Shown here one piece after another: positions 2,036 to 16,079 of a DNA stretch of 27,162 nt. Source of the stretch: a virus. The stretch's first letter is position 1. Every line of letters begins with the position of its first letter. A program made the translations under genes and the position numbers. The stretch covers positions 1-27,162 of IMG/VR virus record IMGVR_UViG_3300048591_001025; one strand, 5' to 3'. The notes under the pieces were generated by a model. It saw nothing but the letters and a program-made list of their open reading frames with translations, did no database searches and was not told where the DNA came from.

Positions 2036-3424
2036 ATGGATTTAAGTCAATTAGAAGCAGAAACTAAAAAATTAGAAGATCGCATTTCAGACGTTGAAAA
2101 ACACGTTCAGACAAGTGATGAATCTAAGCTCAACAATATTACGAAAGGAAACAACACAATGACGCCGACTGTCGGTAGCCGATCCAATTCGGATGAAGCT
2201 CGTGCGCTGATGTATTTCGGCGTCCCCCATGTGAAAAAATTGCTTGAAGTAAACGTGGGTCATCCGCGATTTGCTAAAGTACCAGACGAGTTAAAATATC
2301 TCGTTTTGGAACTCAAGCGAGATATGGACGTTGCACGCATGATGCAACAAATCGTTGGCGGTGAACCAACTGACCGTGACGAAAAACCAGTCATGGTTAA
2401 AGGTATCCTTGATTCCTATTTCGGAAAAAATATTCTTGCTCCAAAACTTAAAGCTTTTGGTTCAACTGTTTCTGGTGCCGGTGATGAGTGGGTTCCAACT
2501 GGAATATCCGCTTCTTACATCGAAGAGTATCAACTTGAGCACCAAGTTGCGCGTCAGTTCCGTCAAATCAACATGCCGACCGATCCATATGATTTGCCGG
2601 TTCAAAAAGATGTGACCGAAGCCCGTATCCAAGCCGAAGGCAGTGGTCTTACTGGTGCAAATTTCGGAACCGACAAGATCCGTCTTGACGCGATCAAATT
2701 GACTGAGTTCATGGTATTGCCTGAAGAATTAAACGAAGACTCTGCGCCTGATATTTTGGGCCTTGTTCGTTCAGAAGTTATCGAAGCGCAAATCCGCGCC
2801 GTCGAGCAAGCAATCATCAATGGTGATTCTGATGGAACGCATCAAGATTATGATACCCATAACGGAGCGGCTAACCTTGCTGCAAAGGCTTGGGACGGCT
2901 TGATCAAATTGGGTATGGCAAACTCTGCCAACGGCGGTAACAAGGATTTCAGCGGCGCTGCTGTTGATGTCACCAAGCTTCGCGACATGCGAACCAAGAT
3001 GAAAAAATATGGAGTTAATCCTCGTGAATTGGTTTGGCTTGTTTCAACCAAGGTCTATAACCAATTCTTGGGTCTTAGCGATGTGACCACAGTTGAAAAA
3101 TTCGGCCCTATGGCGACAATTTTGCAAGGCGCACTAGCTGCCCTTGATGGAATACCCATCGTCATTTCCGAATACATGCGCGATAATGTTGCAGCAACTG
3201 GTTTCAATACCATGGCCGGTCCTAACACGTTCAGCCGCATAGCTCTTGTAAACAAGCAACGTTTTTTCTTCGGCGTTCGTCGTCCAATCCGTGTAAAAGC
3301 GGTTATGGATCCAACACCACCGAACGATCAATGGTTGCTTTGTTCATGGTGGAGAGGTGATTTCAAAGGTCACGCTCAATCCGCGACTGAAATTTCTGTC
3401 GTAACTGGATACAATATCGTCTAA
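2036..3424 (+). CDS. Major capsid protein, HK97 fold
   Basis: This 462-residue protein has the size, position (directly after the prohead protease) and sequence character of HK97-like major capsid proteins. An N-terminal charged helical segment is followed by a long helix, a conserved middle (ARQFRQI, then a Leu-Pro-Val strand), a Glu-Ala-Gln-Ile-Arg-Ala-Val-Glu-Gln helix leading into an Asn-Gly-Asp turn, and a C-terminal P-domain with a Leu-Asp-Gly-Ile-Pro-Ile-Val-Ile-Ser strand. Residues 1-41 look like a delta/scaffold-like coiled coil that the neighbouring protease could remove. GGGAG before 2036 supports the long start. A second in-frame ATG at 2159-2161 (residue 42) has its own AAGGA at 2145-2149, so a shorter product is possible. 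A hairpin terminator follows at 3453-3485. Confidence 0.9.
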   Translation: MDLSQLEAETKKLEDRISDVEKHVQTSDESKLNNITKGNNTMTPTVGSRSNSDEARALMYFGVPHVKKLLEVNVGHPRFAKVPDELKYLVLELKRDMDVARMMQQIVGGEPTDRDEKPVMVKGILDSYFGKNILAPKLKAFGSTVSGAGDEWVPTGISASYIEEYQLEHQVARQFRQINMPTDPYDLPVQKDVTEARIQAEGSGLTGANFGTDKIRLDAIKLTEFMVLPEELNEDSAPDILGLVRSEVIEAQIRAVEQAIINGDSDGTHQDYDTHNGAANLAAKAWDGLIKLGMANSANGGNKDFSGAAVDVTKLRDMRTKMKKYGVNPRELVWLVSTKVYNQFLGLSDVTTVEKFGPMATILQGALAALDGIPIVISEYMRDNVAATGFNTMAGPNTFSRIALVNKQRFFFGVRRPIRVKAVMDPTPPNDQWLLCSWWRGDFKGHAQSATEISVVTGYNIV

Positions 3425-3452
3425 GACTAAAATTAAGTCGAACGAACATGAG

Positions 3453-3485
3453 GGGGACTGTATGATAAGTGCAGTCCCCTTCTTT
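3453..3485 (+). terminator. Rho-independent terminator after the capsid gene
   Basis: GGGGACTG (3453-3460) pairs perfectly with CAGTCCCC (3472-3479) around an 11-base loop, followed by TTCTTT. It lies 28 bases after the capsid stop codon. A terminator here would let the capsid mRNA end separately from the accessory genes downstream. The T tract is interrupted by C, so read-through is likely, and no separate promoter is evident for the next gene. Confidence 0.7.
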
Positions 3486-5463: not shown

Positions 5464-5787
5464 GTGGCCGACGTCGAAGCACAGATGGAAATTGAAGATA
5501 ACGCTGGTTCGACGTCGCACTATTCTGGAACCGTCGGCACCACGCCGACGACCATGCCTGCTGTTTCTAACAAAGTGATTTCTTCATTTTGGATTGAAAA
5601 CAATGCAAATTTAAATACACCAAACAAATTGTTAGAATTTTCATGTGACGGCGGAACTTCTTATACTCAACTTTACATTGGCGAATCCATGGTTTGGTCA
5701 CCAAAGGGTTACATTAAACAAATCTATATTCGCGGCAATGTTGCGTCTGTTGCTTATAGATCTGTTGTGAATTATGAGGATTATTGA
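5464..5787 (+). CDS. Hypothetical virion protein (107 aa)
   Basis: The start is GTG at 5464 (Met-Ala-Asp-Val-Glu), with only a weak CGAG upstream; ATG at 5485 is an alternative. The rest is Ser/Thr/Gly/Asn-rich with strand-like segments (for example Ser-Phe-Trp-Ile-Glu-Asn-Asn-Ala-Asn), as in small beta-rich capsid decoration or fibre-tip proteins. The stop TGA overlaps the next ATG as TGATG, indicating translational coupling. No family is recognised, and the virion role comes from context and composition. Confidence 0.7.
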   Translation: MADVEAQMEIEDNAGSTSHYSGTVGTTPTTMPAVSNKVISSFWIENNANLNTPNKLLEFSCDGGTSYTQLYIGESMVWSPKGYIKQIYIRGNVASVAYRSVVNYEDY

Positions 5788-9034: not shown

Positions 9035-9516
9035 TGGCCGAATTTATAAAAATTGGAAATATTGGCACAGTGCTTGAACGGCGTGTTTCGGAAAGATTGG
9101 CTCGATTATCGCCAAAAGACCCTAGGATAAATGAAGTTTTAACAAGAATTGGCATTTTGATTGAAACTGAAGCGAAACTTAATATTCGTCGAAAAAGAAT
9201 TATTGATACCGGAACTCTTCTTAATTCGATTCGTTACCGTCTGCAGCAGTCTGGTTCTATAGCCGAAGTGAAAATTGGATCATTCGGCGTTCCTTATGCC
9301 GCCGCACATGAGTTTGGTTTTTCTGGTCCGGTTGCTGTGCGGTCATTTACAAGGATTCAAACGACGGCCTTCGGACGCGTTATGCCGCAAGCTAGACCCG
9401 TAACAGTCTCGGCTCATACCCGGTTCATGCGCGTTCGGGAAAGGCCATATTTGCGCCCTGCTTTAAGAAAACATCAAACAAAAATTGTTGAAATGCTGCG
9501 TGAGGTCTATCGTTAA
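9034..9516 (+). CDS. Tail completion / virion morphogenesis protein (HK97 gp10-like)
   Basis: This 160-residue protein contains Asp-Thr-Gly-Thr-Leu-Leu-Asn-Ser-Ile (about residues 59-67) and Pro-Tyr-Ala-Ala-Ala-His-Glu-Phe-Gly (about 88-96). This pair defines the HK97 gp10 / Mu gpG-type virion morphogenesis family, which joins or completes the head-tail interface. A C-terminal Glu-Arg-Pro-Tyr-Leu-Arg-Pro-Ala-Leu motif is also characteristic. The protein is strongly basic, as is usual. The ATG overlaps the connector's stop, and the tail terminator follows 2 bases after its own stop. Confidence 0.82.
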   Translation: MAEFIKIGNIGTVLERRVSERLARLSPKDPRINEVLTRIGILIETEAKLNIRRKRIIDTGTLLNSIRYRLQQSGSIAEVKIGSFGVPYAAAHEFGFSGPVAVRSFTRIQTTAFGRVMPQARPVTVSAHTRFMRVRERPYLRPALRKHQTKIVEMLREVYR

Positions 9517-9978: not shown

Positions 9979-11211
9979 ATGTCAAAGAACTTTCCCGCGT
10001 TGCACGCAAGCGCCAATGACTCGGTTGCCCTTGAGCAAAAAATATATGTAAAGCTTGAGTCCGTGCGCGGAACCATGGTTTTGCCTACTGGAAGTGATTT
10101 TATTTATCATATAGGCGGCGGTTCAGTTAACTTTGTTCAGCCGATTGAATCTTCACCACATAAGTCAGGGCGCCACCATACTAGCGTCATTAAGCAAAAA
10201 ACTGAAACAACTTGGACAATACCAACGTTTTTCAACATCGACACCACACTTGGTTCTGCTTCTCCAAACGAGATATCAGCGGGCATGAAAGTTCTTCATA
10301 AGTCTATGTTTGGATACGAAGACCTTTCGACTTCACCTGTTTACAACACGTCTCAAGATCCAGACATCACGTTTACCATTATGGAAATTGGCGACGTTTG
10401 GGCAAAGCAAGCGCCTGGATGTTTTGTTGAGGCTTGTAACATGACTTTCCCTGGTGATGGCCAAGCGCAAGCTGAATGGTCCGGCATGGGAAAAACTGTT
10501 TTGCTTGTTGGAATTGGGAAATCAGTGACCAACAATAACGCAAATACAGTTACACTTGCGACTGGTGAAGGAAAACGGTTTCCTGTTGGCGCAAAAGTCA
10601 TGATTATAAAAGACGACAACACTAAGTCGACGGATACACCTGCTGGCACAGCTAGGACAGTGACTTCTGTAACCGGTGATGTTGTAACCGTTGACGGCGC
10701 TGTTTTAGCTGATGCCGACGGCACTACTGATCCAGTTTACTTGGTTTATTACGAGCCAGAATCACCGACATCAATTAACGATCCGCAAACTGGTCTTCAA
10801 GGTTCGATTACAATCGCAGGGTTTGGAGCCATTGATAACTGCGTTCGTTCGCTTTCAATTAGTGCTGCAAATAACCACGAGTTGCAGGACTTCTGCTACG
10901 GGGAAGAAGGTCTCGGGGGGCCTCTCTTCACTCCGGGCGGACGATTCACAGCCGAAGTTAGTATCGAGCTTAACTTGAACAAAGAGCTTGTTGCATTTAT
11001 CAATAACTTAAAAGAGTTTGATGGCGATGATATTACTTTGATCTTGGGTGATGCTACAAGTCGACACCTGCAAATCGAAATTCCAAAGGTCATATTCCCA
11101 ATCCCAGAAATACCTGTTCCAGAAACAGGGACAATTCCAGTAACGTTTACTGGAAACGCTTATCAGACGGCGCTTGACGCCGCCGACGAGATAACGTTAA
11201 GCTATCTCTAG
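9979..11211 (+). CDS. Major tail (tube) protein
   Basis: At 410 residues, downstream of the terminator and upstream of the frameshifted chaperones and tape measure, this is the tail tube protein. It has a strong ribosome-binding site (TTGGAGG). The sequence is beta-rich: an N-terminal tube domain, an inserted small domain (about residues 168-250) with Phe-Pro-Val-Gly-Ala-Lys-Val-Met-Ile and alternating Val-Thr strands, and a C-terminal part rich in Pro-Ile and Gly-Thr strands ending near Asp-Glu-Ile-Thr-Leu-Ser-Tyr. Tube proteins with an extra surface domain are common in long-tailed phages. The gene is followed at once by an unusual interleaved stem structure ending in a terminator. Confidence 0.82.
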   Translation: MSKNFPALHASANDSVALEQKIYVKLESVRGTMVLPTGSDFIYHIGGGSVNFVQPIESSPHKSGRHHTSVIKQKTETTWTIPTFFNIDTTLGSASPNEISAGMKVLHKSMFGYEDLSTSPVYNTSQDPDITFTIMEIGDVWAKQAPGCFVEACNMTFPGDGQAQAEWSGMGKTVLLVGIGKSVTNNNANTVTLATGEGKRFPVGAKVMIIKDDNTKSTDTPAGTARTVTSVTGDVVTVDGAVLADADGTTDPVYLVYYEPESPTSINDPQTGLQGSITIAGFGAIDNCVRSLSISAANNHELQDFCYGEEGLGGPLFTPGGRFTAEVSIELNLNKELVAFINNLKEFDGDDITLILGDATSRHLQIEIPKVIFPIPEIPVPETGTIPVTFTGNAYQTALDAADEITLSYL

Positions 11212-11212
11212 T

Positions 11213-11270
11213 CGAAAAGGTAAAGACGTTTTTATTTGCCTTTTCGCAGATGAAAACGTCTTTTCTTTTT
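11213..11270 (+). terminator. Terminator with interleaved inverted repeats after the tube gene
   Basis: AAAGACGTTTT (11222-11232) pairs perfectly with AAAACGTCTTT (11253-11263), followed by TCTTTTTT: a good Rho-independent terminator between tube and chaperone genes. A second perfect pair, CGAAAAGG (11213-11220) with CCTTTTCG (11239-11246), starts 2 bases after the tube stop codon and interleaves with the first. The two stems could form an H-type pseudoknot or compete. Partial termination here would lower chaperone and tape measure expression relative to the tube, which is needed in far greater amount. Confidence 0.75.
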
Positions 11271-11282
11271 TAAGAGGTTCCA

Positions 11283-11723
11283 ATGTTTGGTTTTGAAGAA
11301 GATTCCGAGCTAGTCGAAGTTATTGTTTTTAAAGATGCCTCGGTTCAATGCACACGTGACGAGTATGCTGAGTATCTAAAAACACTCGATGAAAGCCTTT
11401 TAAAAATTAAAGAAGACATGAATCCAACACGCTGGGTCATGAAAAAGACACTGACTTACGGCGAACAACGAAAAATAAAGGATTCACAAGTCGGATTTAA
11501 AGATGGTGATATGACTTTAAGACTTGGTTTTATGCTCGACGAAGTGCGGTTTTCGCTTGTTGACATAAAAAATGCTGGTAAAGGTGTTGAATTCAAGAAA
11601 GACTCTGACGGATATGTTTCAAAATCTTTGATTGAAAAATTAGATGCCGCTGGGATTGTCCGAGAACTTCATGAAGCACGCCAAACGGCTCTTTCCTTGA
11701 AAAGCTTTCCAAAAAAAAGCTAG
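11283..11723 (+). CDS. Tail assembly chaperone, short product (lambda gpG-like)
   Basis: The 146-residue acidic/basic mixed protein is preceded by AAGAGG and lies between the tube and tape measure genes, the position of the G/GT tail chaperones. Its last sense codons are CCA AAA AAA AGC before tandem TAG TAG, so the ribosome crosses a run of eight A just before termination. A shift of -1 there joins this frame to the next open frame (11717-12181). In lambda, G and GT bind the tape measure and recruit tube subunits, and the ratio is set by frameshift efficiency. The chaperone call comes from order and the frameshift architecture, since these proteins diverge strongly in sequence. Confidence 0.8.
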   Translation: MFGFEEDSELVEVIVFKDASVQCTRDEYAEYLKTLDESLLKIKEDMNPTRWVMKKTLTYGEQRKIKDSQVGFKDGDMTLRLGFMLDEVRFSLVDIKNAGKGVEFKKDSDGYVSKSLIEKLDAAGIVRELHEARQTALSLKSFPKKS

Positions 11724-11779
11724 TAGCACTATTAGAACTAGCTTATGCGAATACGTCGGCCCTTGAAAAAGAGGGCCGA
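11711..11779 (+). promoter_or_regulatory. Programmed -1 ribosomal frameshift site with downstream hairpins
   Basis: Eight A (11711-11718) followed by G contain the slippery heptamer A AAA AAA in the zero frame (CCA AAA AAA AGC), six codons or fewer before the stop. Shifting by -1 gives AAG CTA GTA and an open frame up to 12181. Two perfect hairpins follow: GCTAGT (11719-11724) with ACTAGC (11737-11742), and the GC-rich TCGGCCCT (11756-11763) with AGGGCCGA (11772-11779). Either might stimulate slippage. The second is farther from the site than usual, and the first directly abuts it, so the effective structure is uncertain. Confidence 0.78.
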
Positions 11780-12181
11780 AATTTTAATTGCGCAACTTGC
11801 CCAAAATCCATTCAAAAAATAAGACGCTGTCGAGAGGATCGCGAAGACTTTACGTCGGCTGACGGAGCGATTTGGCCGCTTTATATAAACAAAGGCGGCG
11901 AATTATATAGTTTCTGCCCATCAAAGGCGACTTGGGACCAACGCTTAAAAGCTATGTTTGACGAATTAATCTTGATAGCTGAAATGGGTTGGCTTCCCGT
12001 GAAGGGAACATTCTATGATCAACCGTCTTGGCTCATAGAAACGCTTGCCTGGTTCATTCCCCGCTACGATTTCATGAAATTCATGCGAAAAGCCGATACA
12101 ATATTAGGTGGAAATGATGTTAAAAATAATAAAGTAACTAATCCGAATAAAGCGCCCGTCCGTTCAAGAGGGAGAAGATAA
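11717..12181 (+). CDS. Tail assembly chaperone, T domain of the frameshift fusion (GT-like)
   Basis: This frame has no convincing start codon of its own at its 5' end. It is entered by the -1 shift at the A run and adds about 154 residues to the short chaperone, giving a fusion of roughly 300 residues (11283-12181). The internal ATG at 11954 lies in the middle of the conserved open frame and is probably not the true start. The T part has four Cys (a Cys-x2-Cys pair, a third Cys nine positions later, and one in Phe-Cys-Pro) that could bind metal, then an aromatic helical region with Trp-Leu-Ile-Glu-Thr-Leu-Ala-Trp-Phe-Ile. The tape measure starts directly after its stop. Confidence 0.75.
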   Translation, partial: KLVALLELAYANTSALEKEGRNFNCATCPKSIQKIRRCREDREDFTSADGAIWPLYINKGGELYSFCPSKATWDQRLKAMFDELILIAEMGWLPVKGTFYDQPSWLIETLAWFIPRYDFMKFMRKADTILGGNDVKNNKVTNPNKAPVRSRGRR

Positions 12182-12182
12182 A

Positions 12183-15100
12183 TTGGCTGTTTCTGATGAA
12201 CTGCTAGTTAGCGTAAAAATCGATACAAAAGATGGAACGGTCGCGGTTAAGGACCTTGCTGTTTCATTTAAAGACCTTGAAAAAGCCGCAAAAGACGGCG
12301 GCAAGTCTCTTGAACAGTCTGGAAAACAAGGAAAAGATGCCGGTCTTCGTTTCACCGAGTTAAACAGTGTTCTTGAGCTAGCTAGCAAAGCTTATACAGC
12401 CCTTGTTGGACCAATTAATAAGGTACTTTCTGGCTTTATTGACCAAGAAAAAGCACAGACTGATCTTCGGAATACGCTTAAAGGTCTTGGTTTTGATACG
12501 CGTGGGGCTTTAAAAGACCTTGTCGACTTTGCCGACGAGCTTGAATCGCTTAGTGGAGTCGAAGCTGAAACAACTTTGGGTCTGGCTCGTATGGCTAAGA
12601 CTATGGGTCTTACGAATGCAGAAACAAAGCGTATCACGGAAGCAGCTTTTGGACTTTCCAACGTTATGGGTATGGATGTCAATTCGGCATTTAATGATCT
12701 TATTGGCCAACTTAACGGGGCTACGGGTCGATCGGCTAAATTTGTGGCCGGTCTTAAAGATCTAAATCAAGAGCAATTGAAAACTGGGGAAGGTATCGAG
12801 CTTGTTTATAAACAGTTTGCTCAGTTTGCGAGTTTATCGGGCGGATCTCTTGCTGGAAATATCAAGATTGCACAAGAAGCATTCAATAGCATTCTCGACG
12901 AAATAGGTCAGATCATTGTTGAGTTTATTGATCTGCCAAATCTTGTTCGTGAATCGGCTAAGATGTTTAGAGAAATTGCAAAAGATGTTGCAGCGTTTGG
13001 TGAACGTTTAAAAATATTAAAACAAGGTCTTTCAGAGATAAGTTTTGATGAATTTATTTCTGGAATTAGGGCTTTGGGTATTGCTCTTACAACAGCGTTT
13101 GTTGCTGTTAATTTTCAAGCTATTTTAGCAGGATTTACTGCTATAAGGACTGCATTAACAGCAACAGCTATTCCCGCTGCTCTTGTTGCTGCAAAATTTG
13201 CACTCATTACGGCGGCTGTTGTTGCGTTTGTTGTTGCTGTTGAAACAGTTATCGCAAACCTAGACCAGTTAACAGTTCTTGGAAAAGCCATTGAACTTGC
13301 ATTCTTGACCATGGTTTCAAGAGTGATTCAGGGCTTTACATTTATTGCAACGGCTGGTCTATCTGCTGTCGAGTCTATATTAGAACCTCTTTCTAAGTTT
13401 TCTACCGTTGCCGATTCAGCTTTGCAAAAAGTAAGAGAAGGCATGGTTTCTTTGACTAGATCGTCTGACGAGTCACAAGAAAGCATAGATTTATTAAATG
13501 AAAGCCTTAACGATACTGGAAAAGATTTAAAAATAGGTTCTACGCTTAGTTTTATTCTTAAGGGTGTTGATGCCGTAAAGAATGTGTTCGGTGATTTAAA
13601 CAAAGAGTCTGATGATCTAAATAATACATTTGAGGATATAGCTAGAAGATCACAGCAATCATTGCAGCTTTCAAAAGAGCAGCTTCAAACTATTCAACAA
13701 CTTAAAACAGAAAATGAAGCCATCTTAACCGAGACGGCAAACATGAATGCGAGTCAGTTTGATATTATTGAACGTCAACTCGCTCTTGAACTTAAGAAGA
13801 TAGATGCTAAACGTGAACAATTGATCCTTGAGGGCAAGATTTCTAAGGAAGCATTAAAGCTTTTAGAAGAACAAGCATCGGCGCAAAAAGCCAAATCAGA
13901 AGCACAGATAAATCAAATTGGTAAAGTTGACATTATCCCACAGGGTACAATAGACGCGCTCCGTGCTTCAGTTAGCGACGGTGCAGCAGATTTGGCTTCT
14001 GGTATATCATCGGCTTTTAATGCTTTTGCTGGCGCGGCTACCGCAATTATGGGCGCTGTTAATGGCGTTCTCGATTTCGCGCAGCAAGTTATAGATTTTA
14101 TCCCACAAGTTTTAGGTAAAATTGCCAACATATTTAACTCTATTACTGAGCTGCCTGGAAAAATAGTTGAGGGTTTTAAAAATGTTTTTACTGCTGTCAC
14201 AAGATTTATACAGGAGTTTATCCCGAATTTAATTGCTGGAATTGAAGATCTTGTAAATGGATTGGTTGATTTTTTAATAGAGGGATTACCAGCGGCTTTT
14301 GAAAGTCTTTTAGCAAGGCTTCCAGATATTATTGTTGGTTTGATCGACAGGCTGCCAGAATTAATAGAGAGATTTGTAACAGGCTTTATTGATTCGATGC
14401 CAAGAATAACCATTGCTTTGATAAATGGTCTTGTTGAAGGAGCGCCTAAAATAGCTCTTTCGATGATTAAAGTTTTCGTGGTTGAAATACCAAAAGCAAT
14501 AATTCGCGGCATTCTTGAAGGCGCCAAGCAACTTGAAAAAAGGCTAAGAAACTTTTTTACTGGAGTTAAGCTTCCAAAAGAGATAACCGACCTGCCAAAA
14601 GAGCTTGATAAAAACATCAAGAACCTTGGAAGAGGTATCGCAAAAGAATCGTCGAAATTGTTTAAGGTCTTGGATCTTGATCAAGCCGCAAAAGCAGAGG
14701 ATCGTTTTAGGCAGCTTGAAGACATAACAGAAATGTCGATTGAGAAAATAAAAAGCCTTTGGCAGTCGTTCATTGACGGCTTGGTTGCTATTTGGCGTTA
14801 TATTTATGAGACATTTCTTAAGCCGTTTATCGATGCGTTGACTGCTGTTTGGAGATATATATGGGAAAACATACTTAAACCGTTTCTTGATGTGCTTTGG
14901 GCTGTTTGGAACCGTATTTATACAGGTATTATTCTTCCAATCATAAATGCTTTTAAAGAGACTTGGGGTCTTTTAAAGAATTTTGTCGAAAATGCTTGGT
15001 CAAATATTATTAATTTTTTCCAAAATTTATTTAAAGGAAAAATTGAAGAGGCTTTTTCAGGAATTCTTAAATCACTCAGCACGGCTGGAAAGCAAATATG

Positions 15101-16079
15101 GGATGGTTTCAAGTATGGCCTAGAATCTGCTGGGAATTTATTTACTAGCATGGGAACAAAAATATGGAACGGCCTAAAGAGCGGACTTGATGGTTTAAGT
15201 AAGTTCTTTTCAGATATGTTTAATAAGCTTAATCCTGCCAATCTTTTTGAAAAGATTTTTAGAATCGATTACAAGGGAAAAGATACAGTCGAAAAAGCTT
15301 TAAATATAGATATCCCATTCGCAAACTTCGCAACCGGCGGTATGGTTCCAGGTAAGCCAGTAACAAATGGTGATAGTCTTTTAAACGATAGAGTCCTAGC
15401 TTTACTCTCACCTGGAGAAGCCATCATCCCAAGATCGGCTATGCAAAGCCCAGAAATAGCTTCCATTGTTCAAGCAATTTTAAATGGAAGACTTAGGGTC
15501 CCACAATTTGCATTTGGTGGCATTGGTAAAGCAATCGGCGGTGCCGTTAGTGGAGCTAAAGATCTTGGTGGCACAATCTCAGATGTTGGAAAAAACGTTG
15601 GCGGTGGAATTTCAGGAACGGTTAAAGACATTGGTGGGCAGGCTTCAGAACTGGGTAAACAAGCCTTAAAAGAAATAGGGTTAGATCTGAATGCAGCTTG
15701 GCGAATGGTACAAGAACGAACGTTCGCCATGGTCATGCAGATGTTCCGAGAAAACGCTTTTGCCAATGGCGGTATTGTTTCCGGTTCTGGACTTGGCGAT
15801 ACGGTTCCTGCCATGTTAACGCCTGGTGAATATGTCATGAATCGAAACGCTGTTAATTCACTTGGTCAAAATTTCATGAACCAAGTGAATAAAGGCAATG
15901 TTCCAAATGGTCAGCCTATTTATAACGTCGATATGAAAGTTTCAATTGAAGCGTCTTCACAGTCACTCGATGAATCATTTATTAGAAACAGGCTTATTCC
16001 TTCGATAAAAGATGAATTTCGACGTGCATCAATTCGCGGCGAATTTTTAATGTCTCCGAAAGGACTTAGAACAACATGA
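12183..16079 (+). CDS. Tail tape measure protein
   Basis: The longest gene in the window (1298 residues) follows the chaperones, as expected for the protein that sets tail length and is ejected with the DNA. It starts at TTG 12183 with AGAGGGAGAAG just upstream, 1 base after the previous stop. It is mostly helical, with a strongly hydrophobic stretch at about residues 292-360, a second amphipathic membrane-like region at about 590-650, and Trp-rich repeated helices (about 856-940) in which Leu-Lys-Pro-Phe recurs. The C-terminal part has two Gly-Gly-Met/Ile-Val segments, each leading to Leu-x-Pro-Gly-Glu, a motif pair typical of tape measure ends. By the usual 0.15 nm per residue, a tail near 195 nm is expected (inference). 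Confidence 0.92.
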   Translation: MAVSDELLVSVKIDTKDGTVAVKDLAVSFKDLEKAAKDGGKSLEQSGKQGKDAGLRFTELNSVLELASKAYTALVGPINKVLSGFIDQEKAQTDLRNTLKGLGFDTRGALKDLVDFADELESLSGVEAETTLGLARMAKTMGLTNAETKRITEAAFGLSNVMGMDVNSAFNDLIGQLNGATGRSAKFVAGLKDLNQEQLKTGEGIELVYKQFAQFASLSGGSLAGNIKIAQEAFNSILDEIGQIIVEFIDLPNLVRESAKMFREIAKDVAAFGERLKILKQGLSEISFDEFISGIRALGIALTTAFVAVNFQAILAGFTAIRTALTATAIPAALVAAKFALITAAVVAFVVAVETVIANLDQLTVLGKAIELAFLTMVSRVIQGFTFIATAGLSAVESILEPLSKFSTVADSALQKVREGMVSLTRSSDESQESIDLLNESLNDTGKDLKIGSTLSFILKGVDAVKNVFGDLNKESDDLNNTFEDIARRSQQSLQLSKEQLQTIQQLKTENEAILTETANMNASQFDIIERQLALELKKIDAKREQLILEGKISKEALKLLEEQASAQKAKSEAQINQIGKVDIIPQGTIDALRASVSDGAADLASGISSAFNAFAGAATAIMGAVNGVLDFAQQVIDFIPQVLGKIANIFNSITELPGKIVEGFKNVFTAVTRFIQEFIPNLIAGIEDLVNGLVDFLIEGLPAAFESLLARLPDIIVGLIDRLPELIERFVTGFIDSMPRITIALINGLVEGAPKIALSMIKVFVVEIPKAIIRGILEGAKQLEKRLRNFFTGVKLPKEITDLPKELDKNIKNLGRGIAKESSKLFKVLDLDQAAKAEDRFRQLEDITEMSIEKIKSLWQSFIDGLVAIWRYIYETFLKPFIDALTAVWRYIWENILKPFLDVLWAVWNRIYTGIILPIINAFKETWGLLKNFVENAWSNIINFFQNLFKGKIEEAFSGILKSLSTAGKQIWDGFKYGLESAGNLFTSMGTKIWNGLKSGLDGLSKFFSDMFNKLNPANLFEKIFRIDYKGKDTVEKALNIDIPFANFATGGMVPGKPVTNGDSLLNDRVLALLSPGEAIIPRSAMQSPEIASIVQAILNGRLRVPQFAFGGIGKAIGGAVSGAKDLGGTISDVGKNVGGGISGTVKDIGGQASELGKQALKEIGLDLNAAWRMVQERTFAMVMQMFRENAFANGGIVSGSGLGDTVPAMLTPGEYVMNRNAVNSLGQNFMNQVNKGNVPNGQPIYNVDMKVSIEASSQSLDESFIRNRLIPSIKDEFRRASIRGEFLMSPKGLRTT

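Follow-up and report, generated by a model that had tools for sequence, protein, structure and literature searches.

The gap behind the tail tube gene of the virus record analysed here holds an 18-bp A-U-rich hairpin with a U tail, and this element is probably a partial rho-independent terminator lowering transcription from the tube gene to the chaperone and tape-measure genes. The hairpin, its tail and the conserved position of such elements were read from the sequence, from predicted folds and from related loci; from these we infer termination, its partial efficiency and its purpose. Starting 11 nt past the tube stop codon, the hairpin would act as a terminator that halts a fraction of the transcription arriving through the tube gene, and tube mRNA would then be more abundant than chaperone and tape-measure mRNA. 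The terminator hairpin would also constitute the 3' terminus of the tube mRNA, and the chaperone and tape-measure genes would be transcribed by leakage or antitermination.

Gene context

The window, i.e. the whole stretch of DNA that was analysed, is a virus record of 27,162 bases with a siphophage-like structural cluster. The cluster encodes a prohead protease (Peptidase_S78), an HK97-type capsid protein (Phage_capsid), neck/connector proteins, a tube, a frameshifted chaperone, a tape measure and an amidase. The tube, chaperone and tape-measure genes are located on the plus strand, as are all parts of the hairpin region between the first two. The tube (major tail) gene is an ORF at 9979–11211 with the stop codon TAG at 11209–11211. 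Its sole family match is PHROG phrog_290 'minor tail protein' (1.3e-14), and the tube role was assigned to its product from the position directly 5' of the frameshifted chaperone and tape-measure genes. The upstream frame of the tail assembly chaperone (gpG-like, 11283–11723, stop codon TAG at 11721–11723) yielded no match in family searches and was assigned by position and frameshift arrangement. The tape-measure gene (12183–16079) matches phrog_1272 and others (4.8e-22).

The T tail and the chaperone start are just 11 nt apart, and this interval is occupied by a Shine-Dalgarno-like AAGAGG (11272–11277), which was recognised by inspection and adjoins the U tail. A promoter cannot fit into this gap. 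Transcription of the chaperone and tape-measure genes should therefore pass through the terminator, which would have to be leaky or overridden. In the minimum-energy fold, the Shine-Dalgarno-like motif pairs with UCUCU in the terminal part of the tube gene (11204–11209), a pairing that could tie chaperone translation to ribosomes that finish translating the tube gene.

A AAAAAAAAG run was observed where the chaperone ORF ends (11710–11718), and from this run the −1 frame is open to 12181 (chaperone frames 11283–11723 and 11693–12181). This run is a candidate gpG/gpGT-type frameshift or polymerase slippage site. A run of A7–A9 is present at the equivalent place in nearly all related loci. The strong hairpin TCGGCCCTTGAAAAAGAGGGCCGA (11756–11779), about 38 nt past the slip run, is a candidate frameshift stimulator, and hairpins were also observed in the +500 to +750 region of other loci.

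Just 3' of the capsid gene stop at 3424, the window features a canonical terminator, GGGGGACTGTATGATAAGTGCAGTCCCC plus a T-rich tail (3452–3480). The corresponding upstream region of several relatives contains a terminator as well. The capsid and tube genes of the window, both for many-copy proteins, each end in a terminator.

Structure of the hairpin region

The first-pass annotation had described two interleaved perfect inverted repeats directly behind the tube gene. All four arms were recovered where it had placed them, with exact complementarity, and stem 1 begins just past the tube stop, at 11213. The length of both stems had been underestimated, however: stem 2 comprises 18 pairs and stem 1 comprises 12.

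Stem 1 was found by folding and by inverted-repeat search. Its 12-nt 5' arm (11213–11224), of which the first 8 nt had been noticed before, pairs with a 12-nt 3' arm (11235–11246) across a 10-nt loop; the stem includes one G-U pair and is worth about −13 kcal/mol. Stem 2, the terminator stem, was obtained by folding and consists of 18-nt arms at 11222–11239 and 11246–11263, which enclose the 6-nt loop CUUUUC (11240–11245). Its 18 contiguous pairs, including one G-U pair, yield −22.3 kcal/mol and run through what had been taken for the loop. Directly 3' of stem 2 follows UCUUUUUU, with T at 7 of 8 positions, which gives the U-rich tail TCTTTTTT (11264–11271).

The nucleotides 11222–11224, 11235–11239 and 11246 are common to both full-length stems. 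The two stems are therefore alternative, mutually exclusive folds, and the order 1-2-1'-2' of a pseudoknot is valid only for shortened arms. In the minimum-energy fold, GAAAAGG, the core of the 5' arm of stem 1, pairs with the U tail (11264–11270). Both the loop and the tail are U-rich and complementary to this A-rich segment, which makes stem 1 less surprising.

Compared to shuffled sequences, the fold of the region has a z-score of −5.8, and none of 200 shuffles was equally stable. The folding significance of the region is due to stem 2, and the stem 2 region is also the longest inverted repeat within the window. A second inverted repeat of 25 nt, which is imperfect (72%), was observed at 5565–5637 inside an ORF at 5464–5787.

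The element thus combines a stable hairpin with an adjoining U-rich tract, as expected for an intrinsic terminator. A G-C-rich stem base is usual in intrinsic terminators and optional; here the base is AAAG/CUUU. The G-C pair fraction of stem 2 (0.28) is the lowest among the 49 terminators found in the related loci including the window, for which the median is 0.55. An A-U-rich stem base lowers the expected efficiency and leaves the membership as an intrinsic terminator unaffected. The earlier description of stem 2 as a good terminator is therefore apt as far as the terminator-like form and the T tail are concerned, whereas 'good' is doubtful given the G-C pair fraction. The unusually A-U-rich stem fits with leakiness.

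Searches of the element yielded no match in Rfam and no tRNA or tmRNA. Bidirectional termination was considered and rejected: the minus strand folds as well (−22.7 kcal/mol), but only ACCUUUUCG follows as a tail, and a minus-strand gene ending there is not evident.

Terminators in related tail loci

Tube homologues from IMG/VR, mostly with 43–74% identity, served as relatives and resulted in 64 loci including the window; the locus and gap counts given here include some near-copies. A terminator was defined as a hairpin with a ΔG of at most −9 kcal/mol that is followed by 8 bases with 6 or more T and lies in the 260 nt past the tube stop. Such a terminator was found in 49 of 64 loci, in most cases 15–75 nt from the stop. 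With a stricter ΔG of at most −12 kcal/mol, a terminator is present within the first 250 nt in 45 of 63 loci, compared to an average of 5% for the other 250-nt bins within 8 kb. When predicted same-strand gaps of 25–400 nt were compared, 31 of 45 tube gaps contained a terminator, as opposed to 36 of 210 other gaps. The drop in expression from the tube to the chaperones and tape measure, as proposed by the first-pass annotation, agrees with these position-conserved terminators.

Among the 55 distinct tubes placed in a tree, a terminator is present in 42 and absent in 13. The window falls into a well-supported clade of 14 tubes, 11 of which lack a terminator at this place. The feature is hence not essential, and the window either regained its copy or retained one that was lost by its sisters.

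The hairpin sequences are unrelated among divergent relatives, while the position is conserved. None of the relatives examined shares the hairpin sequence of the window, and a scan of viral_contigs for the exact inverted-repeat pattern yielded no second occurrence. A search of genome_contigs for relatives and a search for tube homologues among named phages both gave no result. Uncultured divergent phages have accordingly kept a terminator at the tube/chaperone boundary while its hairpin sequence turned over completely. This suggests that selection acts on the transcript drop-off at this boundary and not on any one RNA structure. As far as the terminator is concerned, conservation in the related phages extends to stem 2 alone, an outcome which the first-pass annotation itself had named as refuting its interpretation.

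Alternative explanations

Instead of causing much termination in vivo, the hairpin might mainly be a 3'-end stabiliser, a processing signal or a decaying remnant. Its A-U-rich stem, with the lowest G-C pair fraction among the 49 terminators, and the absence of a terminator in most close relatives would be in line with this, as would the locus L034, which is sister to the window by its tube (support 84/86). The corresponding gap in L034 contains a long imperfect hairpin, TGAGTGAACGATACGGGTC...TGATTGACTCA (9234–9323, the same as L005 5231–5320), and no U tail. In the window, however, the T run adjoins the stem as in the terminators of the relatives, and we regard this explanation as unlikely.

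A further question is the role of stem 1, for which the first-pass annotation had assumed that it forms first. Equilibrium folding of the growing transcript bears this out thermodynamically: the probability of stem 1 is about 0.99 from an RNA end at 11246 to about 11256 and falls below 0.05 from 11260, where it is replaced by stem 2, which is about 9 kcal/mol more stable. Stem 1 would thus be a transient fold that persists until the 3' arm of stem 2 has been transcribed and then gives way.

For a comparison of competing folds, each of the 49 terminators was folded over a stretch that starts 20 nt upstream of the stem and ends with the initial base of the 3' arm. The value of the window (−13.0 kcal/mol) is the lowest of all, with −2 to −6 kcal/mol being typical. 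A counterpart of stem 1, in the sense of an equivalent conserved fold, was absent among the 48 other terminators of the related loci. Given stem 2, the energy of stem 1 was reached by about 0.7–1.3% of control flanks, which were randomised or random window flanks, and by 0.1% with single-base shuffles; an exact 8-mer match occurred in 0.8–1.4% of control flanks. The test was performed post hoc, and the value of about 1% is weak evidence obtained after the fact. Stem 1 is most likely a chance product of A-rich and U-rich flanks. A chance origin is not an entirely satisfactory explanation, since none of the 49 competing folds is stronger than stem 1 and only about 1% of controls match it.

Stem 1 could alternatively be part of an attenuator-like switch. 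As an antiterminator, it would then delay stem 2 during the pause of RNA polymerase at the U tail, and a ribosome finishing the tube gene would cover the 5' arm of stem 1 and promote termination. The alternative folds and their right order of formation are consistent with such a switch, and so are the start of the stem 1 arm 2 nt past the stop codon and the chance probability of about 1%. The equilibrium crossover at an RNA end of 11256–11260 also coincides approximately with the stretch of RNA that is presumably exposed by a polymerase paused at the U tail. On the other hand, the 3' arm of the more stable stem 2 can invade stem 1 via its open 10-nt loop, which should make exchange fast, and the 1% value was obtained after many features had been inspected. 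Mutually exclusive hairpins, as in an attenuator, are present, but conservation of the alternative hairpin was not found among the 48 other terminators. The proposed stem 1 regulation by a ribosome-linked switch is thus left without comparative support, since no relative has an equivalent stem 1 or a comparable competing fold. We consider the switch quite improbable, and that stem 1 is a real antiterminator coupling post-tube termination to ribosomes completing the tube gene appears very improbable. If true, it would constitute a self-limiting stoichiometry switch inside a phage tail operon.

The coexistence of both stems in an H-type pseudoknot, as a stable RNA element affecting pausing, translation or stability, is highly improbable despite the arm order 1-2-1'-2': by a crude steric rule and an approximate initiation penalty, only trimmed forms fit, and the best sterically allowed one (9+9 pairs) reaches about −20 kcal/mol compared to −22.3 kcal/mol for stem 2 by itself and −28 to −31 kcal/mol for the hairpin with its A/U extension, which favours the full hairpin by 2 to 10 kcal/mol. 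The 8+11 pair form described earlier leaves an L1 of 1 nt to span 11 pairs, and none of the relatives examined shows a pseudoknot. A trimmed pseudoknot could be a passing intermediate.

Comparison with known systems

The window shares the arm order with H-type pseudoknots, but its full stems overlap and the 18-bp hairpin is favoured. Attenuators of the trp-leader type employ alternative hairpins. The window resembles them in having two overlapping, mutually exclusive hairpins, the later of which is the predicted terminator. It differs from them in that a leader peptide, a sensor and a conserved competing hairpin are absent and in that the later hairpin wins strongly at equilibrium.

T-phi of phage T7 is a partial terminator located after the capsid gene 10. 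As predicted for the window, it is a leaky stop past an abundant structural gene which tunes the expression of later genes; it differs in being read by the phage RNA polymerase and in its sequence, which is unrelated to that of the window.

Experimentally mapped 3' ends at an intrinsic termination site lie behind the tail tube gene of the Listeria phage CKA15 (PMC12282133), and an intrinsic terminator was predicted downstream of the major tail gene of the mycobacteriophage Corndog (PMC4351075). CKA15 is contractile-tailed, and a separate start site nearby serves its chaperone transcript. In contrast to both phages, the stem in the window is A-U rich and the element adjoins the next ribosome site; termination is predicted here, whereas it was mapped in CKA15. 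Common to the window, CKA15 and Corndog is a hairpin with a T-rich tail directly after the tail tube or major tail gene on the same strand. The window has a predicted terminator at a type of site for which terminators are already known.
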